From Pseudomonadota bacterium (GTDB lineage: Bacteria > Desulfobacterota > Desulfovibrionia > Desulfovibrionales > Desulfovibrionaceae): a stretch of 64,000 bases of DNA. Position numbers and translations under genes: made by a program. Location of the stretch: contig JAHIUW010000030.1 in the NCBI GenBank assembly GCA_018816865.1, forward strand, positions 1-64,000, in the 5' to 3' direction. Below, one piece after another: positions 3,859-64,000 of the stretch. The notes beneath the pieces were generated by a model, which saw only the letters and a list, made by a program, of their open reading frames with translations, searched no databases and was not told the DNA's origin. How positions within the stretch are numbered: position 1 is the stretch's first letter; every line of letters begins with the position of its first letter.

Positions 3859-5952
3859 ATGTCCAATGCGATCCTCTATACGGCCGCGAGTGCTCTGAAT
3901 GCCGCCCAGTATGCCATCAGCGTGCATTCCAACAACGCCGCCAACGTCGATACCGAGGGCTATTGCCGCCAGACGGTGAATCTGACCGAAGGCTCTGTCG
4001 TGGATACGGCCAATGGCTATCTGGGGCTGGGGGTTTCCAGCGAAGAGGCCGAGCGGGCGTTCAGCATCTACATCGAATCCATGTATCTGGACGAGAGTAC
4101 CGATGCCAGCCGCTGGTCCACCGAGGCGGAATGGCTGGGCTACATCGAGAACATCTTCAACCAGAGCGACGAGGACGGCCTCAACAACGCCCTGGCGGAG
4201 TTGTTCCAGGCCTGGGAGGATCTCAGTGCCTATCCCGACGAGGAATCGACGCGAGCCGCACTTTTAGGGGCGGCCGAGAGCTTGAACACCATCCTGTCCG
4301 ACATGAGCGAGGATCTGCAGACCCAGCAGGAACTCATTGAAGCCGAGGTGCGAAGCCAGGTCACGGAGGTCAACTCCATCCTGGATCAATTGGCCACCCT
4401 CAATATCCAGATCGCCCGCGAGCCCGGCAACAACACGTTGCTGGACTCGCGGGACATCCTGGTCCGCGAGCTGGCGGGGTACATGGACGTGGACACCCAA
4501 TACGCCGAGAACGGCCAGGTCACCGTGTACCTGGACTCGGGGCAAATCCTGGTGGACGGGGAAAAGACCTATGAAATCAAGTACGAGAGCGCCAAGTCCT
4601 GGGCCTCCCTGACCGGGGACTCGACCTTCGAGGGCACGGCCTATTTTGAGGGCGAGTCCAGCAGCGAGATCGTGTTGGAGGTGGTCAATGCGGGCACCGT
4701 GGACGGAGGGGCGGGGGCCGCACAGTACCGTGTGTCGCTGGATGGCGGCCAGACCTGGCTGAAGGACACTGACGGCAATGATCTCCTGTACGCCGCCGAC
4801 GGTGAGTCCGGGGCCATCGAGGTGGACGGCGTGTCCATCTGGCTTGGGGATTCCAGCGACTCCGGCACCTTGGCCAGCGGCTCTCTGGCGGCGGGCGACA
4901 CCTTCACCGTCATGGCCAAGAGCGGGGTCTATTGGTATAAAAACACCTCCAGCTGCGAGAACATTACCCCCCTTGCCAGCTCCACCGGTGGCGACGAGGA
5001 CGACCGCTTGACTGGCGGCAGCCTGGCCGGTCTGTTCTCGGTGCGTGACTCGGAACTCGGGCAATACGTCGAGGAACTCAACGCCTTTGCCGAAAGCCTG
5101 ATCTGGGAGACCAACTTCGCCTCCAGCCAGGGTGCGGGGCTCAGCAATTTCAGCTCAGTGACCGGCAGCTATGCGGCCGAGGACACGGCGGCGGCCATGG
5201 CGGACAGCGGTCTGGATTTTGCCGACCAGTTGCAGGGCGGCACGTTCAGCATGGCCCTCTACGATGCGACCTCGGGCGACGTGCTGGAGGTCACGGCCGT
5301 GGACTTCACCAGCGTCACGGGCCAGGCCACCTTCGACCCTGAGACCGATTCCCTGGAGGATGTGGCCCAGGCCATCAACGACACCTACGGCGGACAGCTC
5401 ACGGCCACGGTCACCAACGGCCAACTGAGCATCGCCGCCGCCGGTGGCGTGGAATTCCAGTTCGCCGGAGACAGCACCGGCATCCTCGCCGCCTGCGGCA
5501 TCAATACCTTCTATACCGGCTCTTCGGCCGAGGACATCGGGCTCAACGCCTCGGTGCTCTCCGATACCAGTCGCATCAATGCGGGGGTGGTGGAGGGCAC
5601 GGGTCAGGCTGCACAGGGTGACAACACCGTGGCCCTGGCCCTTGCGGAACTGGCGGACAAGGACCTGACCATCAGCACCCTGAGCGGCAGGGAAAAGACC
5701 CTGACCCTGTCCGAATACCTGAACGCCCTGGTGGCCGAGGTGGGAGCCGATTCCTCCACTGCCCAGGCCAACGAGAGCTACTACACGACCCTGGCCGAGC
5801 AGTTGGCCACCCAGCAGGACTCCCTTTCCGGGGTGAATCTGGACGAGGAATTGATCAAGATCGAGCAGTATCAACGCCTGTACGAGGCGGCTTCGAGCCT
5901 GATCAACACGTCCAATGAAATGTTCGACACCCTGATGGCCATGGTGTCCTAG
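3859..5952 (+). CDS. flgK: Flagellar hook-associated protein 1, FlgK
   Basis: FlgK (HAP1) is the first junction layer between hook and filament. At 697 residues it is on the long side for the family. The N-terminus has the conserved ASALNAAQYAISVHSNNAAN and VDTEGYCRQ stretch, and the C-terminus has SGVNLDEELIKIEQYQRLYEAAS and the NTSNEMFDTL helix, both typical. The extra length comes from inserted domains in the middle; one around residues 270-350 contains a YRVSLDGGQTW motif that recurs twice in the adjacent FlgL. Three cysteines are visible in this secreted protein. A GGGAG site precedes the ATG; the stop is followed directly by AGGAGG serving flgL. Confidence 0.94.
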   Translation: MSNAILYTAASALNAAQYAISVHSNNAANVDTEGYCRQTVNLTEGSVVDTANGYLGLGVSSEEAERAFSIYIESMYLDESTDASRWSTEAEWLGYIENIFNQSDEDGLNNALAELFQAWEDLSAYPDEESTRAALLGAAESLNTILSDMSEDLQTQQELIEAEVRSQVTEVNSILDQLATLNIQIAREPGNNTLLDSRDILVRELAGYMDVDTQYAENGQVTVYLDSGQILVDGEKTYEIKYESAKSWASLTGDSTFEGTAYFEGESSSEIVLEVVNAGTVDGGAGAAQYRVSLDGGQTWLKDTDGNDLLYAADGESGAIEVDGVSIWLGDSSDSGTLASGSLAAGDTFTVMAKSGVYWYKNTSSCENITPLASSTGGDEDDRLTGGSLAGLFSVRDSELGQYVEELNAFAESLIWETNFASSQGAGLSNFSSVTGSYAAEDTAAAMADSGLDFADQLQGGTFSMALYDATSGDVLEVTAVDFTSVTGQATFDPETDSLEDVAQAINDTYGGQLTATVTNGQLSIAAAGGVEFQFAGDSTGILAACGINTFYTGSSAEDIGLNASVLSDTSRINAGVVEGTGQAAQGDNTVALALAELADKDLTISTLSGREKTLTLSEYLNALVAEVGADSSTAQANESYYTTLAEQLATQQDSLSGVNLDEELIKIEQYQRLYEAASSLINTSNEMFDTLMAMVS

Positions 5953-5960
5953 GAGGCATG

Positions 5961-7454
5961 ATGCGTATCTCCAACTCGATGATCTGGGATTCGGTGATCA
6001 GCTCCACCAATAAGGCCCTGGCCGATTATTATGCGTTGTCGGAGCAGAACGCGAGCACCAAGAAGGTCAACCAGCCCAGTGACAACGCCTCGGGGACCGG
6101 GGCCATCCTGAACCTGCGCGACAGTCTCTCCGCCCTGGAGCAGTACCAGGAGAACATCGATACGGCGACGGGCTATCTGTCCTCGGCCGATGACGTTCTG
6201 ACCACCATGAGCGATCTGATAATCAACCTCATGGAATTGGCGGAGCAGGGGGCCACGGGCACCCTTTCCGAGGCACAGCGTGAAAGTATTGGGGAGCAGG
6301 TCCTTGAATATTTTAAGGAAATGATCTCGGTGGCCAATACCGAGTTCATGGGCGACAGCATCTTCGCTGGACAGTTGACCGACGTGAACACCTACGAAAT
6401 GGGGCTGGGCGCGGATGTCACCGGCGGGACCCTGACCGACGCCGACGTACTGACCATCAGCGGCGACAGCGATTCGACCCTGAGGGTCGAGTTTCTGGAT
6501 TCCGGGACCATCGGGACCACGGCCATCGGAGATCTTGATTATCAGTATTCCAGCGATGGCGGCGACACCTGGACCACGCCCACCCTGACCATGGGCGATA
6601 CAACCCTTGATCTGGGCGGCGTCCAGCTGGAGTTGGCCGATGGGGCGGTGGTCAGTTCCGAGGGGGATGCCGACGGGGCGAGCACCCTGGTCGTGCGTCC
6701 GGCGGCCATCTACCAGGGGGACGACGAGGACGGTGCCGAGGTCATGCAATACGGGGCCTCGTCCCTGGACATCGAGGCCGAGGGCTTGTTCTCGTCCAAG
6801 GTCATGGTGCGCATCGACACGGGCGGCGACGTGACCACGGACACCATTGAGTATTCCTACAGTACGGACGGTGGTTCGACCTGGGTGCAGGGCAATCAGG
6901 CCGAGGACGGGCTGTTGACCGTGCCGGGGGGGGTGCTGAGTTTGCAGCCCGACGGCGGCACCACCGTGGGCGCCGCAGAGCAGTTCATGATCTCGCCGCA
7001 TACGGCGGACATCAATCTGGCCATTTCAGATTCCTCGACCATCACCATCAACAACGTGGGCAAGGATATCTTCGGCGGTTTGTATCAGGCCCCCGGTGAG
7101 GACTACGCCACGGCCGAGAGTGAACCCAATCTCTTCGAGACCGTTGGCGAGTTGGTGGGCGCCCTGGCGACCAACGACCAGGACGCCATCGCCGCGTGTC
7201 TGGAGAAACTGTCAGCTGCCCAGGAGGTCGTCACCGCTGCCGCCTCGGACGTGGGCGCGCGCGAACAGCGTCTGGTTGCCGCTTCCTATGGGCTCGAAAT
7301 CCGCGCCAGCAACCAGACCTCGCAGCTCTCGACTCTCGAGGATGCGGATCTCATCGCCCTGACCGTTCAACTGCAAGCGGCCGAGACCGTCTACACCTCC
7401 GTGGTGGAGACCTCCACGAACATCATGAAGCTTTCCATACTGAATTACATCTAG
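5961..7454 (+). CDS. flgL: Flagellar hook-associated protein 3, FlgL
   Basis: FlgL (HAP3) is the second hook-filament junction protein. The N-terminus MRISNSMIWDSV and the flagellin-like KVNQPSDNASGTGAILNLRD segment, plus a C-terminal QTSQLSTLEDADLIALTVQL helix, identify it. At 497 residues it is much longer than the roughly 300-residue enterobacterial form: residues about 150-355 hold two related insertions, each with a Y-x-YS-x-DGG-x-TW motif (residues 199 and 303). I prefer the ATG at 5961 over the adjoining one at 5958, which is only one base from the AGGAGG box at 5951-5956. It is tightly packed between flgK and fliD. Confidence 0.92.
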   Translation: MRISNSMIWDSVISSTNKALADYYALSEQNASTKKVNQPSDNASGTGAILNLRDSLSALEQYQENIDTATGYLSSADDVLTTMSDLIINLMELAEQGATGTLSEAQRESIGEQVLEYFKEMISVANTEFMGDSIFAGQLTDVNTYEMGLGADVTGGTLTDADVLTISGDSDSTLRVEFLDSGTIGTTAIGDLDYQYSSDGGDTWTTPTLTMGDTTLDLGGVQLELADGAVVSSEGDADGASTLVVRPAAIYQGDDEDGAEVMQYGASSLDIEAEGLFSSKVMVRIDTGGDVTTDTIEYSYSTDGGSTWVQGNQAEDGLLTVPGGVLSLQPDGGTTVGAAEQFMISPHTADINLAISDSSTITINNVGKDIFGGLYQAPGEDYATAESEPNLFETVGELVGALATNDQDAIAACLEKLSAAQEVVTAAASDVGAREQRLVAASYGLEIRASNQTSQLSTLEDADLIALTVQLQAAETVYTSVVETSTNIMKLSILNYI

Positions 7455-54455: not shown

Positions 54456-54575
54456 ACTATAAATTTTTAGCTGATATCTGAGGTTTGCTTGCCAAGCGAC
54501 CAATCGTCGCAGGAGAGCCCACGCTGAGCGGCGATGGAAGGTCAAGGGTCGCGACTTGTCACCAGAGGTGTTGAG

Positions 54576-55568
54576 ATGCAAAAGCTCCTGTCATGCCTCC
54601 TTGTATTGATCATGGCAGCCACTGCCGCCCTGATCCCGGCCTGTTCCCAAGAGCCGCAGCCAGTCCAGTCCAAGCCCCTGCGGGTGGGCTGGTTCCTCTG
54701 GCCGGGTTGGTACCCCATTGTCATCGCCAAAGAAAAAGGCTTCTTTGACAAGCATGGGGTGCAGGTGGAACCGGTGCTGTACACGGCCTACACCGACATC
54801 TTCTCCGACTTCGCGGCCGCCAAGCTCGATGCCGCCCACGGCGGACTCTACGAACTTTTGAAGAGCAGTACCTTGGACATGAAGGTGGTCCTCGCCACCG
54901 ACAATTCCGACGGCGCGGAAGGCGTCGTGGTGATCCCGGAGATCAAGACTCCGGCCGACCTGGCCGGCAAACGCATCGGCATTCAGGGCGCGTTGTCCGG
55001 CAGCGAGTTCATCATTACCACCCTGCTGCGCCGCTACGGGCTTTCGCGCAATGACCTTATCCTCGTGGACGTGGGACCGGAAATCGTTCTGGAAACCATG
55101 CCTGAACAGATTCAGGGCGGCTACACCTGGGAGCCCTTCCTCTCCAAGGCCAAGGAAAAGGGCTACAGGGTGCTCTTCACCACGGCCGATACGCCGGGCA
55201 TGGTCCCCGATGTCATCGTTTTTCAGGGTGCTGTCGTGAAAGAGCGGCGTGCCGACGTGCAGGCCTTTGTGGACGCCTGGTTCGAGGCCCAGGAATACTG
55301 GCTGGCCCACAGGCAGGAGGGCGACGCCATCATCGCCAAGGCCACGGGTCAGCGGCCCGAGGACATCTCCCTTGAGGGATGCCGCATCCTCTCGCGCCGG
55401 GACAACCAGAAGGCGTTCATCAGTGAGGCCGCGCCCTCCTCCCTGTTCGACACCGGAGCCAAGCAAATCGCCTTCTTCATCAGCATTGGCGACGCCTCCA
55501 TGGCTCCCGATCTGAACGCAGTGCTTGATCCATCCTTTGTGCAGGGCTCAGGAGATGCCGTTCAATGA
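54576..55568 (+). CDS. NMT1/THI5-like substrate-binding lipoprotein
   Basis: A 330-residue periplasmic binding protein of the ABC transporter NitT/TauT/NMT1 type. The signal peptide MQKLLSCLLVLIMAATAALIPAC has a lipobox-like end at Cys23. LRVGWFLWPGWYPIVIAKEKGFFDKHGV and the ADLAGKRIGIQGALSGSEFII segment are typical (the first is shown in parts). AGAGGTG precedes ATG 54576. No permease or ATPase gene follows: the next gene, overlapping by 4 bases (ATGA), is a histidine kinase. The protein therefore probably feeds a signal to that kinase. Ligand unknown. Confidence 0.85.
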   Translation: MQKLLSCLLVLIMAATAALIPACSQEPQPVQSKPLRVGWFLWPGWYPIVIAKEKGFFDKHGVQVEPVLYTAYTDIFSDFAAAKLDAAHGGLYELLKSSTLDMKVVLATDNSDGAEGVVVIPEIKTPADLAGKRIGIQGALSGSEFIITTLLRRYGLSRNDLILVDVGPEIVLETMPEQIQGGYTWEPFLSKAKEKGYRVLFTTADTPGMVPDVIVFQGAVVKERRADVQAFVDAWFEAQEYWLAHRQEGDAIIAKATGQRPEDISLEGCRILSRRDNQKAFISEAAPSSLFDTGAKQIAFFISIGDASMAPDLNAVLDPSFVQGSGDAVQ

Positions 55569-58336
55569 GCACGTTTCGTCTGCGCGACCTGCTGGGCCCT
55601 TTCGGGCTGCGTACCAAGCTCATCAGCGCCTTCCTGCTCATCTCTCTGGTGCCTATCTGCACCCTCGCCATTCTGGACCAGCGTGTCACCTCCGACGCCC
55701 TTTCGCAAAACAGCCGCCAGGGCATGCTTGCCTCCGCATCGCATAGCGCAGAGATCATTGACGGCTTCATCCTCGCCAACCTCTCCACCGTGCGCACCGA
55801 GTCCACGATTCCGCAGTTCGCGCAATACCTGCAGCTCTCGCCGGACAAGCGCACCGGGTCCCAGGAAGAGCAGGCGGCCATGGGCATTCTCACCTCACTC
55901 AAACGGCGAGACCAGACCTACATCACCTCCATCGCCCTGCTGGACCTGAGCGGTTGCGCCGTGGCCGACACCTACGGGCCAGACATCGGCCTGGACAAGT
56001 CCAATCGGGATTATTTCCAGTTTCCAAGAGACACGGGCCTCCCCTACGTCTCCCCGGTGGGTCTCTCGGAAAGGGCACGGCAGCCGTCGCTGTATTTCAG
56101 CTGTCCAGTGCGCAATACCGCAGGCCGCATTCTCGGCGTCCTGCGCTTCCGTTATAACGCCTCCGTCCTACAACAGCTGCTTTTGCCAAGCAGTGGTACA
56201 GAGGATACCATTTATAGTTCCATCCTCTTCGACGACGAGGGCCTCAGGCTGGCTGACAGCCAGCGACCCGAACTGGTGTTGACTCCGGCTTTTTTACTGT
56301 CCCAAGACGCCACGGGTCGGATCGGCTCCGGCAGGCGTATCTTCACCTCGGCCGATCAGGGCCTCCCCATCGGCATGGACAAGGATGAGTTGGCCGATGC
56401 CGACGTCACTTTTTTTCATACCTTTCTGTACGGCCCCGAGAGTGAACCGACGCTGAACGTCAAGGTCCGCCTGCGCTATGCGCCGTGGACACTCGTGCTG
56501 GGCTATTCCGAAGCCGCCAACCTGGCCAAGATCGCCACGCAGTTGCGCTATGCCTTTGTGGTGGTACTGTGCATCGCCCTGGCCGTGGTCTTCGCCGCCG
56601 TGGCCGTGACCCGAGGCATTACCAGGCCGTTACTCACGCTCATCGACGCCGCGCGTGACCTGTCCGAGGGTCAGGAGGTCGTATCCGTACCCCTGGAGTC
56701 CGGCGATGAGATCGGCGAACTGGCCACGACCTTCAATACTATGAGTGAGGCCCTCCAACTCTCTCGCCAAGGGCTGCTGGCCTCCACCGAGCGGCTGCAA
56801 TCGTTGCTGGACACCCTGCCCGACACCGTGATCGTGCACGATGCAGACGGCAGGATCATTGACGTCAACCAGAACTTCGAGGAGATGTTCGGCTATTCCC
56901 CCGTTGAGGTGGCGCACCTCAACGTCGGCTTGATCAGCGGCGGCGAATTGACCCGGCAAGACGCCCTGCAACTGATTGCGTCGTGCCTCGATCTGGGTCT
57001 GCTGACCTTTGACTGGACGGCACGCCGTAAGGACGGGAGCGAATTCCCTGTCTATGTGAGGCTACGCCGACTTGACTTGCCCGAAGGCATACGGGTCATG
57101 GCCGTACTCACCGACATCACCGAACGCAAGCAAGCGGAACTGGCCCTGCTCGATGCGCGCAATTACATCGACAACATCATCGACTCCATGCCCTCGGTGC
57201 TGGTCAGCGTGGATGCGGGGGGCAGGATCACCCAGTGGAACTCCCAGGCGGAAAAGACCACGGGCCTGAAGAAGGATGCGGTCACCGGACACCCTCTGGA
57301 AAAGGTGCTTCCCTATCTGACAGACGAGATGGAACGGGTGCGCGAGGCCATGCGCCGCAAGACCCCCCTGGGCGACTCCAAGTGCCTGCGCACGGTCGAC
57401 GGCATGATCCGCTATGAGGACATCATCATCTTCCCCTTGGTCGCCAATGGTGTGGAAGGCGCGGTCATCCGCGTGGACGACGTGACCGAGCGCGTGCGGC
57501 TTGAACAGATGATGGTGCAGTCCGAGAAGATGCTCTCCGTGGGCGGCCTGGCCGCAGGCATGGCCCACGAGATCAACAACCCCCTGGCCGCCATCCTGGG
57601 GTCTGTCCAGAACATCAAAAAGCGCATCTTCGAGGACCTGAAGATGAACCTCGTCGCGGCACAGGAGTGCGACGTCGCCCTAGACAAGGTGCGAGCGTAT
57701 CTGGAAATGCGCAATATCACCAAAATGCTCGACGGTATCCAGGACTCGGGCATCCGGGCGGCAAAGATCGTGAGCAATATGCTCAACTTCAGCAGGAAGA
57801 GCGACGCGAGCTTTACCAAGAGTGACATGGCGACCCTTCTGGATCAGACCGTCGAACTGATCGGCAGCGATTATGACCTGAAGAAAGGCTATGATTTCAA
57901 AAAGATCGAAATTCGCAGAGACTTCGATCAGAATCTGCCTCCCGTGTATTGCGATGCCAATCAGATCCAGCAGGTTTTTCTGAATCTTTTCAAGAATGCC
58001 GCCGAGGCTATGGCTGAAAAGGATTACAGGAACGAAAAACCATTTTTCGTGCTGCGCACCGCCATGAAGGAGGGCATGGCAGTCATCCGGATTGAAGACA
58101 ATGGCCCGGGCATGAACCCGGAGACCTGCAAGAAGATCTTTGAGCCGTTCTTCACCACCAAGCCTCCGGGGAAGGGCACCGGGCTTGGCCTCTCGGTCTC
58201 CTACTTCATCATCGTCGACCAGCACGGCGGCACGATGGAGGTCTTCTCCGCCCCAGGCCAGTGGACTCGGTTCGTCATCAAACTCCCGCTCGTTCCCGGG
58301 GAGAAGCTCCATGACTACGAACGCATTTGCACGTGA
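55565..58336 (+). CDS. Cache-HAMP-PAS-PAS sensor histidine kinase
   Basis: A 923-residue membrane kinase. TM1 (about 20-37) leads into a periplasmic dCache-like domain (about 40-320), TM2 is [22 protein letters not shown] follows at [18 protein letters not shown]. Two PAS domains cover about 410-530 and 533-650 ([20 protein letters not shown] and [20 protein letters not shown]). HisKA has the phospho-His 668 in [15 protein letters not shown], and HATPase_c has [40 protein letters not shown]. It overlaps the binding-protein gene by 4 bases. No response regulator is adjacent in the window. Confidence 0.92.
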
Positions 58337-58855
58337 TGCTTGTGGGAGCGGACGAGATCGTGACAATCTCTGTGCTGCCTGTTCAGGCAGTGCCAAATCA
58401 AGAGAGGCCGGCAGAGGAGGATCGATGCCCAGGGGAGATTCCAGCGCTGAAAGTTTGAAAGCAACATCCTGAAATAGTTAATGTCTAAATGCGCGAGGGA
58501 ACTTGAGAGACAGATAACCCGAATGCTGCCTCCAATTAAGACCTTCGATCCCTGTCCATGGGCAGTTGTCATATCCTATTCTTCTACTTGCCCATTAACT
58601 ATATATTTTAAAAAGTTTTCCACAGGCCTAAGCTTTCTCCAACTACAAGAGGTGCTTGTCCCAGAACGACACCTTACCAGTCAAAATCATAACCTACCGT
58701 TTTGATGAGTTAATCTTTGGCTTTCGGTTTTCATGGCACGTACTTGAGCCATTATCCACAACCAATCAAGATGTTTTTCGTGCACCCTTCCCAAAAATCA
58801 AGAATCATATATGATGATAAGGATGAATTGTCCTACTCATAGTTCAGGCACTGCA
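58337..58855. other. AT-rich gap before the exopolysaccharide genes
   Basis: About 520 bases with no gene. It holds two DnaA-box-like sequences: TTATCCACA (58752-58760) and TTTTCCACA (58616-58624), plus an AT-rich block at 58595-58615. Promoters for the downstream cluster should lie here but none is clear. Confidence 0.45.
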
Positions 58856-60394
58856 ATGAAACAGACACCATGGCCATCCTCATTCCGACACATTGTTGTC
58901 GGGATACTGCTGAGTATCTTCGTCCTGTTTGCCACGACGGCCCACGCTGCCGAGCGGGAGTATTATACGTTGCAGCTGGCTACGTTTGCACAGGAATCCA
59001 ATTCGCGTCGTTATTACGAATCATTGCGCGGACGAATGGCTCCCCATCTCCATGCGCAGGTCAGGGTCGAACGCATCGGCAATCTGTATGCCTTCAGACT
59101 CGGGGCCTGCACCAATGAAATCTGTCTTGAAACCCTGCGCGAAATGGTGAGCGATGAGTTCCCGAACGCCCAGCGCTTACAAGCACAAATCCTTCCCGAC
59201 CGCATGTTTCTCGGAGCTGGAGTTCCCGCGGCCCCAACCACGCCAGAGACGATGATCTCTCCGGCACCGGGCCCTGCCGGTTTCGAGGGCTCAAAACCCG
59301 TGCCCCTTCCCGAGTCGTCCTCGCAGCCCCTTGTCGAGTCGAACACGCAGCCCCTTCCCGAGTCGAACACGCAGCCCCTTGTCGAGTCGAACACGCAGCC
59401 CCTTGTCGAGTCGAACACGCAGGTCCTTGCCGAACCAACGATCCTGCCCCCTTCGGATACCGGGCAGCGCCAAGAAGCTACAGCACCTGAACCCTTGGGA
59501 ATGAACCCGGCGCAAGGTCTGCCCTCGCCTTGGCTACGCTACGCAAGTTATCTGGCCCTTGGTTTGCTGGTCCTGGGAGGGCTTTTCGTCCTGCGCAAGA
59601 GGCCCGGCAAAACAAAACGCCCAACGGAAACTGCTCCATCCCGGGGCGCGGCAACAACACAAAGAGAGCAGATGACGGACATGACCACAGTCACACCCAG
59701 GGCCGAGACCCGAGCCGCATACGACGAGCCTCTCCGAGAGACGCCGAGCCTTTCGGAGGCGGACGAGAAACTGCTTCAGGGCAATTTCTCCGAACTGGCC
59801 ATGATCCAGGGCAACATCCAAGGCAAGGACAAGCACGTCCGCACCATTTACGTCACGAGCTGCTTCAACGGCGAGGGAAAGACCCGCGCCGTGCTGAACA
59901 TGGCGCATGGGATGTGCATCAACCACTCCAGGATTCTCTTGATCGACGGCAACCCACGCACACCGCAGTTGCACGAGAAGTATGGCATTTCCAAGGCTCC
60001 GGGGCTGATGGATGTACTCTTTCTGGGCACCCCGCCCGAAGAGGCCATCCACGAGACAAAATACAGGGGCCTTCATGTGATGCCCTTTGGGCAGGGACCT
60101 CCCGGCAGGCCGAACATGCTCAAGGACAGAATCCTGAGTGACTTGATGGACAGGCTGAAGGACTCCTACGATTTTTTGATTATGGACGGGCACTCCCAGA
60201 TTGGCTCTTCCGATGGACCTCTGGTGGCCTCGATCTTTGACGGCGCCATCCTGGTGGTGGAGTGCGAGAAGACCAAATGGGAGGTCGTGCAGGAGGCGAG
60301 TAAGAAAATCGCCCTCTTGGGGGGCAAGCCCCTTGGTGTTGTGCTCAACAAGCGCAGATTTTACATTCCCAGGCTTTTCTATGGTAGGAAATAA
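58856..60394 (+). CDS. SPOR domain / CpsD-type kinase-like fusion
   Basis: A 512-residue protein with an unusual build. A signal sequence (FRHIVVGILLSIFVLFATTAHA) leads to a SPOR-like peptidoglycan-binding domain (residues about 30-110; EYYTLQLATFAQ, YAFRLGACTNEIC). A Pro/Ser-rich linker carries five 8-residue repeats (ESNTQPLV type, DNA 59309-59428). A membrane span (YLALGLLVLGGLFVL) follows near residue 235, then a cytoplasmic CpsD/CapB-type ATPase with Walker A SCFNGEGKTRAV, an A' motif changed to IDGNPRTP, and DFLIMDGHSQ. No tyrosine-rich tail is present. Likely controls polysaccharide export. The start is chosen at ATG 58856 since it gives the signal peptide; an upstream start at 58811 is possible. 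Confidence 0.78.
   Translation: MKQTPWPSSFRHIVVGILLSIFVLFATTAHAAEREYYTLQLATFAQESNSRRYYESLRGRMAPHLHAQVRVERIGNLYAFRLGACTNEICLETLREMVSDEFPNAQRLQAQILPDRMFLGAGVPAAPTTPETMISPAPGPAGFEGSKPVPLPESSSQPLVESNTQPLPESNTQPLVESNTQPLVESNTQVLAEPTILPPSDTGQRQEATAPEPLGMNPAQGLPSPWLRYASYLALGLLVLGGLFVLRKRPGKTKRPTETAPSRGAATTQREQMTDMTTVTPRAETRAAYDEPLRETPSLSEADEKLLQGNFSELAMIQGNIQGKDKHVRTIYVTSCFNGEGKTRAVLNMAHGMCINHSRILLIDGNPRTPQLHEKYGISKAPGLMDVLFLGTPPEEAIHETKYRGLHVMPFGQGPPGRPNMLKDRILSDLMDRLKDSYDFLIMDGHSQIGSSDGPLVASIFDGAILVVECEKTKWEVVQEASKKIALLGGKPLGVVLNKRRFYIPRLFYGRK
59309..59428 (+). repeat. Five 24-bp tandem repeats in coding sequence
   Basis: Five copies of a 24-base unit at 59309, 59333, 59357, 59381 and 59405. The common unit is GTCGAGTCGAACACGCAGCC plus CCTT; the first and third begin CCC, the last varies at its end. 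Length divisible by three keeps the frame, encoding an octapeptide repeat in the periplasmic linker. Copy number could differ between strains. Confidence 0.9.
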
Positions 60395-60395
60395 T

Positions 60396-61466
60396 ATGAT
60401 CAGACGACCCCATATTCCGATTTTCATGGCGCTGGTGGCCTGCATGCTGGGCATGCTCCTCGGTTGCAGCCCGCACCCCAACCTGAATCGCGGCGAGGAA
60501 GTCGGCTTCAAGTCGACGACCTTTTCCTTCGACAAGGACACCTACCCCACTCAGGACGGGCTGTTCCCCGAATACCATGTTGTTCCCGGAGACCTCCTGG
60601 ACGTGTTGTTTCAGGTGCAGACCGGAGGCAGCAACGAGTCCTTTCGCCTCGCTGTGGACCACACTGTCAGCGTAAAATTCATCAATCTGCCCGAGCTGAA
60701 CGAGACCCAAAACGTCAAGCCCGACGGGATGCTTTCGCTGCCCTATATCGGGGAAATCTACGCTGAGGGCAAAACCCCCACGGAGCTGACCCTGGAGCTC
60801 AAGGAACGCTACTCCAAGGTCCTGCGCGACCCCGAACTCTATGTCACGGTCCCTGAGTTCAGTACCAAGATCAAGGAACTCAAGAAGGACCTGCATACCG
60901 CCACGCGTGGCCTTTCCCGTCTGGTCACGGTGCGGCCCGATGGATACGCCACATTCCCTCTGCTGGGCGATGTGTTCGTGGCGGGCCGAAGCATCCCCGA
61001 AGCCAATGACGTGCTGGACGACAAGTACGAGGAAGTCCTGCCAGGTCTGCAAGTGGATCTGTTCCTTGAAAAGACCGTGGGCTCCGTTGTTTACGTCACC
61101 GGACAGGTCGACAAGCCTGGCAGCTACATGATCGAAAAGCCCATCTCGGTACTCCAGGCGATAATCATGGCCGGCGGCAGCAGCAGCGACGCGGAACTCG
61201 ACAGTATCATCGTGTTCAGACGCAACAAGAAGGAATTCATCGCCACCCGGGTCGATGTGCACGACATTATGTCCGCTGGGGGCAAGGCGTCGTTCTTCTA
61301 CCTGCGGCCTGACGACATCGTCTTTGTGCCGCGTACGCGCATAGCGTCGATGGGACAGCTGATGAGTGAAATCGCCGGCGTGTTCCTGTTTAACGGTTGG
61401 AACGTCGATGGCAGACTGTTCGATGATTATATCTTCAGGTGGAATAGCAGCACTTCACGCAACTAG
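60396..61466 (+). CDS. Wza-like polysaccharide export lipoprotein
   Basis: A 356-residue outer membrane export protein. A lipoprotein signal ends in LGMLLGCSP. The poly_export/SLBB region has LFPEYHVVPGDLLDVLFQV, VKPDGMLSLPYIGEIYAEG, and VTVRPDGYATFPLLGDVFVAG, then SLBB VYVTGQVDKPGSYMIEKP and LQAIIMAGGSSSDA. It forms the outer channel of Wza-type export systems. It begins 1 base after the previous stop with TAGGAA upstream and is followed by a Wzz-like gene. Confidence 0.9.
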   Translation: MIRRPHIPIFMALVACMLGMLLGCSPHPNLNRGEEVGFKSTTFSFDKDTYPTQDGLFPEYHVVPGDLLDVLFQVQTGGSNESFRLAVDHTVSVKFINLPELNETQNVKPDGMLSLPYIGEIYAEGKTPTELTLELKERYSKVLRDPELYVTVPEFSTKIKELKKDLHTATRGLSRLVTVRPDGYATFPLLGDVFVAGRSIPEANDVLDDKYEEVLPGLQVDLFLEKTVGSVVYVTGQVDKPGSYMIEKPISVLQAIIMAGGSSSDAELDSIIVFRRNKKEFIATRVDVHDIMSAGGKASFFYLRPDDIVFVPRTRIASMGQLMSEIAGVFLFNGWNVDGRLFDDYIFRWNSSTSRN

Positions 61467-61489: not shown

Positions 61490-62863
61490 ATGATCAAGAC
61501 GGAAGACTACTTACGAGAATTCATTATCATCTTCTTTTCGCAGCAGCGGGTCATTATCTGGACCACTGTGGCGATCTTCGCTCTGTCTGCGGCCGTGGCC
61601 ATGTTCTGGCCACCGACCTATGTCGTGGAAGGCTCGGTGCTGGTGAAGGGCAAACGCTCCATGCGCAGCCCCGAAAGCCTGGAATCAGTGCAGCTGCGCA
61701 CCGTGCTTGTGGATAAGGAGGACCTGAACTCCGAAGCCGAGATCCTGACGTCGATGGAAGTGATCGGCCTGGCCCTGGAGGGCCTGCGTAAAGAGGGCAA
61801 AGTCTACGCAGACAAGAATCTCTCGGGGGAACAGCTCCAGGCTCTGGCCGCTACCATTCGCGATGGCATCAAGACTGTGATCCTGCCAAACTCCAACATC
61901 ATTGAGATCAAGCTCTTCGGCAAGGATGCGCAACTGGCCCAGGCAGTGCTGCATGAGGTCATGGCCAACTACGTTCTCCGTCGCCGGGACGTCTATAACC
62001 CCAAGGGAATGGAGGACTTTTTTGCGGGGCAGGTCGGTCAGTTCGACAAAGGGCTACAGCAGGAAGAGCGCCGTCTGCTCGACCTTGCCGCCAAATCCGG
62101 ATCCGCGGACGCCGAGCAGGAAATTGCCAATAATCTGACCCTAAAGATGGAGTTGGAACGCCAACTCTACGCCGACCGGAGCAAATTGACCGAGAATCAA
62201 AAGTTCGCGGATCATATTTCCAACGTCTTGGCCTCGGAGGGGATCCAGTTCTTCTCGTTCATCGACAACCTGTCCATCACCCATCTTGGCGACCAGTTGC
62301 AGCAACTGGTGGTGGAACGTGGTCAGGCCATCCGAATCTACCATCCGGAGAGCAAGCAGATCGCGCGTATCGACGAGCAGGTTGCGAACCTGAACAAGAC
62401 CCTGAAAAACGAGGTGCGCACCTACAAGGAAGGCATCGAATCACGAATCAGGGTGCTCCAGGAGACCACAGCCACGCTGGAGCGGGATATCCAGGCCCTG
62501 GAGGACAAGAACCTGCGGCTCTACGAGGGGCATGTCGCCTGGCAACGCGTCCAACGCGAGATGGCCTTGCGTTCGCAGTCGTTCGGGACCTTCTCGCAAA
62601 GGCTTGAGGAGGCCCGGATTGGAAGCGGCACAGAGGCCACCAACCTGTTTTCCATCAGTATCCTGAGTTGGCCCAAGACGCCTCTTTCGCCGATCTTCCC
62701 CAAACCGAATCGCGTCATTCCCATGGGTCTGCTCGCTGGCTTCATCACGGGTTGTTGTCTGGGATTCCTGCGTGAGTATTTCGACCACACCTTCAAGCGT
62801 CCCGAGGATGCGGAACGTTATGCCGCGCTGCCTGCAATCTTCTCCATTCCCCTTGATCAATAA
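61490..62863 (+). CDS. Wzz/GumC-like chain length determinant
   Basis: A 457-residue inner membrane protein with two spans (IIWTTVAIFALSAAVAMF near residue 25 and IPMGLLAGFITGCCLGFL near residue 415) bracketing a long periplasmic domain full of coiled coil (EERRLLDLAAKSG, KTLKNEVRTYKEG). This is the layout of Wzz/BexC/GumC polysaccharide co-polymerases. It lacks a fused cytoplasmic kinase; the CpsD-like domain is on the separate gene at 58856. Ends 11 bases before the sugar transferase gene. Confidence 0.9.
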   Translation: MIKTEDYLREFIIIFFSQQRVIIWTTVAIFALSAAVAMFWPPTYVVEGSVLVKGKRSMRSPESLESVQLRTVLVDKEDLNSEAEILTSMEVIGLALEGLRKEGKVYADKNLSGEQLQALAATIRDGIKTVILPNSNIIEIKLFGKDAQLAQAVLHEVMANYVLRRRDVYNPKGMEDFFAGQVGQFDKGLQQEERRLLDLAAKSGSADAEQEIANNLTLKMELERQLYADRSKLTENQKFADHISNVLASEGIQFFSFIDNLSITHLGDQLQQLVVERGQAIRIYHPESKQIARIDEQVANLNKTLKNEVRTYKEGIESRIRVLQETTATLERDIQALEDKNLRLYEGHVAWQRVQREMALRSQSFGTFSQRLEEARIGSGTEATNLFSISILSWPKTPLSPIFPKPNRVIPMGLLAGFITGCCLGFLREYFDHTFKRPEDAERYAALPAIFSIPLDQ

Positions 62864-62873
62864 AGGTACAATC

Positions 62874-64000
62874 ATGGCATTTGTCGAAGATACAACAAAG
62901 CTTCACCCCCATCATTCCCGGTTCAGCAAGGGGGGGTATTTTGCATACACCCCGTGGTCGTTCGTGACCATCACCATTTTCAACGCCCTACTTTCCTTGT
63001 TGTTTCTACTGCCAGCCCTGCCGCTCATGCTCTGCATCGGGCTCGTCATCAAGCTGAAAGACCAGGGACCCATCCTGTACAAGGGCACACGCCTAGGGCT
63101 CAGCAAGCGGCCCTTCTCCATGTACAAGTTTCGCACCCTGCCCGTGGGGGCGCAAAAGACCATCGGCGCAGAGGTGCTGCAGCCCATGAGATCCTGTCCC
63201 CCCAGATCTTCAGCCGGCGGTGCATCGTCCGGGGAGACGCAACAGGCCAATGCCCCCGATAGCCTCCAGCCAGGGCAATTCTGTCTCCCCCGCTTTTCCA
63301 AGTTCCTGCGGGACAGCAGGCTGGACGAACTGCCCCAGTTGATCAACATCATCAGGGGCGACATGGATTTCATCGGCCCGCGTCCGGTGCGTCCCGAAGT
63401 CTATGATTCGGTTGCGGACAGCATCCGCAATTACGACCTGAGGTTCTCGGTACGTCCGGGACTCATCGGCTACGCACAGCTGTTCACTCCCCACAGCGCC
63501 CCAAAACGTCTGCGGGCCCTCATTGACAACAAGTTTATCGCGCGCAAGCGAAAGCTTTCCTGGGACCTGCTGATGATTGCTTACACCGTGTGGATCGTGG
63601 GGCTGACGGTCCTGCGCAAGGGGTCCGGGCATCTCACGGACCTGACACGGTCCAAGGTCTTTCGCTTCTACACGCAAACCCGCGTCTTTGATCGGATTCG
63701 GACCCACGAAGCTGCGGTGACGGTCCTTGCCGCGGATGGCAGTGTGGCTGAGGAAGACGCCTATCTCGTGGATCTGAACGAGAGTCATTTCAAGATCCTG
63801 TCCAATGTCGACTTGAGTGGCAACGGGTATCGATTCGTGCTCCGCCGCAACGTACGCCGGGGAGGGAGCGTCCACCCCAAGCGCTCCTTATGCCGGGGGT
63901 CAGTCTACAAGACCCTCCCCTGGAAGGGGAATTTCACGCAGGCCTACGTTATTGAATACGAGCCCGTTTCGGAGCTCAACCGCTATATGGTGGATCAGTA
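62874..64000 (+). CDS. Bacterial sugar transferase, partial, with C-terminal extension
   Basis: A frame open from ATG 62874 to the window edge (at least 375 residues). The core is an initiating undecaprenyl-phosphate sugar transferase: a membrane span (ITIFNALLSLLFLLPALPLML), KDQGPILYKGTRLG, FSMYKFRTLPV, FLRDSRLDELPQLINIIRGD, FIGPRPVRPE and RPGLIGYAQLFTP. It starts polysaccharide assembly by loading the first sugar phosphate on the lipid carrier. Beyond the usual end (about residue 255) more than 100 residues follow, including HEAAVTVLAADG and VDLNESHFKILSNVDLS, which loosely resembles a PilZ-type domain without its DxSxxG signature. The end of the gene lies outside. Confidence 0.85.
   Translation, partial: MAFVEDTTKLHPHHSRFSKGGYFAYTPWSFVTITIFNALLSLLFLLPALPLMLCIGLVIKLKDQGPILYKGTRLGLSKRPFSMYKFRTLPVGAQKTIGAEVLQPMRSCPPRSSAGGASSGETQQANAPDSLQPGQFCLPRFSKFLRDSRLDELPQLINIIRGDMDFIGPRPVRPEVYDSVADSIRNYDLRFSVRPGLIGYAQLFTPHSAPKRLRALIDNKFIARKRKLSWDLLMIAYTVWIVGLTVLRKGSGHLTDLTRSKVFRFYTQTRVFDRIRTHEAAVTVLAADGSVAEEDAYLVDLNESHFKILSNVDLSGNGYRFVLRRNVRRGGSVHPKRSLCRGSVYKTLPWKGNFTQAYVIEYEPVSELNRYMVDQ

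Follow-up and report, generated by a model that had tools for sequence, protein, structure and literature searches.

In pneumococcus, other proteins recruit CpsCD to the septum. The septal localization of this system, and the shift in capsule synthesis seen with relocated CpsC, have been described (PMC4574921, PMC10233549), and in S. aureus the 29-residue tail of CapA binds and activates CapB (PMC12004946). In the octamer interface of BY-kinases the EX2RX2R motif forms one half and the tyrosine cluster the other, and EX2RX2R was reported to be essential for trans-autophosphorylation (PMC3795738). Pairs of a BY pseudokinase and a PCP-2 protein are represented by EcpK/EpsV of Myxococcus xanthus and HfsB/HfsA of Caulobacter, of which EcpK/EpsV has been proposed to act as a phosphorylation-independent scaffold (PMC12004946). 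The ligand of SPOR domains is denuded glycan, not peptidoglycan in general; in RlpA, Q270, F274, and Arg 302, 309, and 311 contact the glycan (PMC6895207). Both modules, as well as the pseudokinase-PCP pair, are already known, and what is new in the locus described here is their combination and the intermediate state of the catalytic motifs. In the open-access literature that was searched, no description of such a fusion was found, which is no proof of novelty. The subject bears on how Gram-negative bacteria extend a continuous polysaccharide channel across their peptidoglycan and choose its site.

In the 64,000-nucleotide stretch of DNA analyzed here (the window), an intact open reading frame at 58856..60394 encodes a protein of 512 aa that consists of a signal peptide, a SPOR domain, a repeat-containing linker, a single membrane span, and a P-loop ATPase of the CpsD/CapB type. 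This gene and all features given below by their window coordinates lie on the forward strand. An alternative in-frame ATG is present upstream at 58811, but the start at 58856 was preferred, since it yields a signal peptide and aligns with the MKAII start of a relative. The signal peptide (residues 1-31, cleaved between AHA and AE; 58856..58948) was recognized from the sequence and a predicted helix at residues 8-29, and a hydrophobic N-terminus is kept in relatives. The SPOR domain (residues 35-111; 58958..59188) is separated from the membrane by a linker of about 105 residues, which is of low complexity, is predicted to be periplasmic, and is in part made up of a 24-bp tandem repeat coding for PLVESNTQ (5.5 copies; 59302..59433). 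The transmembrane helix (residues 225-247; 59528..59596), supported by sequence and predicted structure, is directly followed by the basic stretch RKRPGKTKR. The order of the domains and these charges predict a periplasmic SPOR domain and a cytoplasmic ATPase. The fusion of the two through a membrane span, first proposed in a sequence-only reading of this DNA, was upheld by the intact frame, the profile matches, the fold, and the single span. We ruled out that the protein is an ordinary relative of Wzc whose N-terminus had been misread, because it has no Wzz domain and Wzz is encoded by a separate gene.

The SPOR assignment is borderline on the protein's own sequence and solid through its relatives, the predicted fold, and the nearest solved structures. 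A Pfam search of the protein matched PF05036 at residues 35-87 with E = 4.9e-4 and 20.8 bits against a cut-off of 21, and the same site scored 23.9 bits, above that cut-off, in a whole-genome search. Six of the eight aligned fusion proteins matched PF05036, the best with E = 8e-12. The AlphaFold2 model (pLDDT about 95) has the SPOR order beta-alpha-beta-beta-alpha-beta, with a strand at 35-44, a helix at 47-60, strands at 69-74 and 77-85, a helix at 88-98, and a strand at 106-111. When this isolated 93-residue fold was submitted to Foldseek, CwlC (1x60), RlpA with denuded glycan (6i09), and DedD (6ztg) were among the top structures, each with a probability of 0.98-1.00 and E-values of only 0.01-0.1; a profile built from the SPOR alignment gave only weak matches to solved chains, CwlC included. 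The stretch that corresponds to the RlpA glycan contacts reads Q40-LAT-F44, with R70 and R73 nearby, and R81 is located two residues ahead of G83. These last two residues are invariant in all eight fusion proteins and the fold pattern is the same, at an identity of 12-21% outside the genus.

The sequence-only reading had called this part a peptidoglycan-binding domain; its SPOR identity stands, and the ligand to be expected of it is denuded glycan, not general peptidoglycan (PMC6895207). Two amidase genes in the genome encode potential makers of such glycan. Three of the eight fusion proteins (L047, L048, and L052) lack the groove Gln, so possibly not all of them bind glycan. This loss and the borderline Pfam score of the present copy would also suit a periplasmic protein adaptor, for example one that docks to Wza or to the periplasmic domain of Wzz, with no link to wall or septum. 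We regard such an adaptor as unlikely, because Q40, F44, and the basic residues are kept in this copy, several relatives are strong SPOR matches, and one relative (G007) carries two SPOR-like repeats, an arrangement to be expected where avidity for a polymer matters.

The ATPase domain (residues 296-500; 59741..60355) was delimited by sequence and fold comparison. Its closest solved chains by sequence are VpsO (6u1q; E = 5e-18) and CapAB (1e-15), which are also nearest by fold, and the CapB kinase structures 4jmp and 4jlv share the same fold. The domain is CpsD-like, as had been claimed, with a TIGR01007 match of E = 3e-27, though its 95.6 bits are under the curated cut-off of 108.05. A ParA/MinD identity was ruled out by the far better match to VpsO/CapB (E of 5e-18 versus 1e-4). 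Walker A (SCFNGEGKT, S335-T343; 59858..59884) retains Lys342, and the Walker B region (FLIMDG; 60173..60190) retains Asp444. The A' motif reads LLIDGNPR (59936..59959), with D364 kept and N366 in place of the second Asp; since the A' motif of CapB is DGDMRKP, it is the second position that has changed, from Asp to Asn. At the position of EX2RX2R the protein reads SELAMIQGN, and the motif is absent. The tyrosine cluster is replaced by the conserved C-terminal motif YIPRLFYGRK (60362..60391), in which Y503 and Y509, set within a conserved YIPxxxYG, are the only two tyrosines of the last 15 residues. Alignment bore out two further observations made from the letters alone, the missing DxD and the missing terminal tyrosine cluster.

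We compared a set of 20 sequences sharing the signature ECEKTKWE (residues 469-476; 60260..60283) with 26 BY-kinases from the same searches, chosen by their Tyr-rich tails. The signature-bearing clade is well supported (99 in one tree, 98/95 in another). None of its members has the second A' Asp (Asn in 15), which is present in 26/26 controls. Both Arg residues of EX2RX2R are absent in 20/20, compared with a Glu in 26/26, a first Arg in 25/26, and a second Arg or Lys in 26/26 of the controls. We rely on these raw counts, as the Fisher p of 2e-13 obtained in this comparison takes no account of shared ancestry and the controls had been selected by their tails. The Walker A Lys and the Walker B Asp are each found in 20/20 clade members and the first A' Asp in 19/20. 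The conserved features of the clade's own are ECEKTKWE and YIPxxLYGKI, and in most members two to four of the last 15 residues are Tyr. The alignment shows that the whole clade has jointly lost the second A' Asp, EX2RX2R, and the Tyr cluster, which makes the case against kinase activity stronger than it was in the sequence-only reading. Nucleotide binding has apparently been kept and the phosphorylation machinery lost; the nucleotide switch proposed there in place of a kinase fits the invariant Lys and Asp of the two Walker motifs.

A tyrosine kinase that is still active, tolerates the A' Asn, and phosphorylates Y503, Y509, or other proteins would be consistent with the retained P-loop Lys, Walker B Asp, and first A' Asp and with the tyrosines kept near the C-terminus of most clade members. 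It is rather improbable, given the joint clade-wide loss of three hallmarks, the reported requirement for EX2RX2R in trans-autophosphorylation, and the lack of any phosphatase gene in the locus, the genome's single LMW-phosphatase-like gene being unlinked on contig C6. A second CpsD-like kinase that would do the phosphorylation from elsewhere in the genome was not found, the fusion being the only CpsD-like (TIGR01007-type) match.

The same phylum contains a broad group of BY-kinase-like domains that end in IPxxxY where a Tyr cluster would be expected (L018, L020, L034, L067-L069, L071, L072, L074-L076, L082, L085, and L092). The P-loop Lys is lost in 14/14 of them (GEGVS, GEGTS, GEGAT) and the second A' Asp in 13/14, and some are fused to Wzz; by these motifs they look like a large group of BY pseudokinases. 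One stand-alone ATPase with such a tail (L040) adjoins, at the upstream end of its locus and on the minus strand, an ExeA-like AAA ATPase whose C-terminus appears LysM-like by eye, a possible second wall-binding part beside EPS genes.

The fusion gene heads a sugar-polymer export operon. Directly downstream are genes for a Wza-like outer-membrane export protein (Poly_export, SLBB; 60396..61466; PF02563, E = 2.5e-27), which is a conserved neighbor, and for a Wzz/PCP-like protein (61490..62863; PF02706, E = 1.1e-5; TIGR03017, E = 8e-18). These two genes support the proposed link to polysaccharide export. The Wzz-like gene is separate, as had been stated, but ORF order and profiles make it the second gene after the fusion, not the third. 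The assembly genes begin at a bacterial sugar transferase (62961..64000; PF02397, E = 1.3e-39), identified among the genes of locus L043 and cut by the window end, and the cluster continues to a flippase and glycosyltransferases. The Wzz-like protein, the probable partner of the fusion ATPase, has no kinase domain of its own and ends in REYFDHTFKRPEDAERYAALPAIFSIPLDQ, about 30 residues past its second span. This CapA-like cytoplasmic tail is conserved across the fusion loci.

Several other features of these loci were recorded. In L006 (7443-9458) and L010 (9746-11644), the PCP genes encode 150-220 extra residues and additional hydrophobic segments past the CapA-like tail. L043 also encodes, at 5602-6627 (contig C3, about 67602-68627), a conserved secreted protein without a Pfam match that is shared by several of these EPS clusters, for example with 47% identity in L011. 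Just upstream of the fusion gene, window positions 54534-58336 encode an NMT1-like binding protein and then a Cache-HAMP-PAS-PAS histidine kinase. This pair is probably unrelated, since in G001 another ORF, on the opposite strand, adjoins the fusion.

Our survey for the fusion beside wza/wzz genes found it in nine species from seven genera of the Desulfovibrionaceae (g1, g4, g7, g25, g31, g49, and g52). Besides the genome studied here, full-length or near full-length fusions are present in G001 (same genus, 65% identity), G007, G031, G078, G083, G275, G293, and G294. In seven of the nine species the Wza-like and Wzz-like genes follow directly, and then the sugar transferase and assembly genes. 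This distribution and synteny indicate that the fusion is no accident and rule out a chance or artefactual joining. The remaining two fusions (G293 and G294; loci L095/L096) are without adjacent wza/wzz; a very large ORF comes next after the fusion, and the YIPxxLY motif is eroded. A single origin is possible, as a tree test did not reject it (p-AU 0.11). Among 395 genomes of the phylum, no SPOR fusion was seen outside the Desulfovibrionaceae, although divergent N-termini could escape such a search. The ATPase occurs without SPOR in the same family (G015 and L007), in Nitrospirota (L006, L008-L010), and in others, and these stand-alone forms also precede Wza and Wzz wherever the contig extends far enough. 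Because they run the same Wza-Wzz set, the SPOR domain is best described as an add-on. That the fusion merely provides a membrane anchor or periplasmic spacer, with SPOR an incidental passenger of no regulatory role, could be read from these stand-alone ATPases and from the repeat-rich, low-complexity linker, but is very improbable, since SPOR is retained across seven genera at such low identity outside the genus and its common fold pattern and two invariant residues exceed a passenger's needs.

With a SPOR domain joined to an ATPase, and its gene at the head of an export operon, the protein may direct the exporter to a working site in the wall. The explanation that we favor, with somewhat better than even confidence, is that the fusion is a nucleotide-binding PCP partner of the BY-pseudokinase type, tethered by SPOR to denuded peptidoglycan, which places or licenses Wzx/Wzy-type EPS export. 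The protein would then serve the exporter as its cytoplasmic partner ATPase and carry its own periplasmic address tag. The ATPase domain would probably dock on the CapA-like tail encoded by the adjacent Wzz-like gene and, as the intact P-loop and the lost motifs suggest, would bind nucleotide and guide Wzz ring assembly with no phosphorylation of tyrosine. The SPOR domain, whose fold and key residues are seen, would bind peptide-stripped peptidoglycan at the end of its long linker, and the Wza-Wzz channel would thereby be placed or licensed at septal or actively remodelled wall. Two precedents, EcpK/EpsV and pneumococcal CpsCD, which are the nearest experimentally tested models, would be joined in this way, with SPOR as the address and the pseudokinase as the handle on the PCP. 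We count against this explanation the lack of the groove Gln from three of the eight fusion proteins, the two conserved C-terminal tyrosines, which could be phosphorylated, the two fusions without adjacent wza/wzz, though their C-terminal motif is eroded as well, and the stand-alone ATPases that serve Wza-Wzz without SPOR. SPOR biology and the work on pneumococcal CpsD lend plausibility to the earlier suggestion that export is tied to the wall or to the site of division.

We also consider, more tentatively and as a possibility only, that the protein is a wall-sensing transmembrane switch, in which engagement of SPOR with denuded peptidoglycan alters the nucleotide state of the pseudokinase and opens or assembles the Wzz-Wza channel solely at sites of ongoing wall cleavage. 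If true, this would be a phosphorylation-free switch in a Gram-negative organism, encoded in one polypeptide. A wall-binding module built into a CpsD-like protein makes the link between wall and export directly testable.

In comparison with known SPOR proteins (FtsN, DedD, DamX, RlpA, and CwlC), the fusion is similar in fold, in its linker and membrane anchor, and, for this copy, in the groove residues, whereas its SPOR domain follows a signal peptide and precedes the span, and its cytoplasmic partner is a BY-kinase-like ATPase. VpsO/Wzc (PCP-2a) provides the closest solved ATPase (6u1q) and has the same role beside a Wza-like exporter; however, the ATPase there is fused to the Wzz domain, while here Wzz is separate and SPOR occupies the N-terminus. 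The CapB/CpsD proteins with CapA/CpsC (Firmicutes PCP-2b) share the fold and a partner PCP with a CapA-like tail of about 30 residues, but the fusion is without EX2RX2R, DxD, and the Tyr cluster and has its own membrane span and SPOR domain. The likeness to EcpK/EpsV and HfsB/HfsA lies in a separate PCP without a kinase domain, a Wzx/Wzy-type EPS locus, and a partner of BY-kinase fold in which the Tyr tail is gone and catalytic residues are lost (here the A' Asp). EcpK, in contrast, is a stand-alone protein that lacks all three Walker motifs (PMC12004946), whereas the fusion retains Walker A and Walker B, has lost a single A' Asp, and possesses a membrane span as well as an exported SPOR domain. 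In its motifs, the clade would be intermediate, with active BY-kinases on one side and complete pseudokinases such as EcpK on the other.
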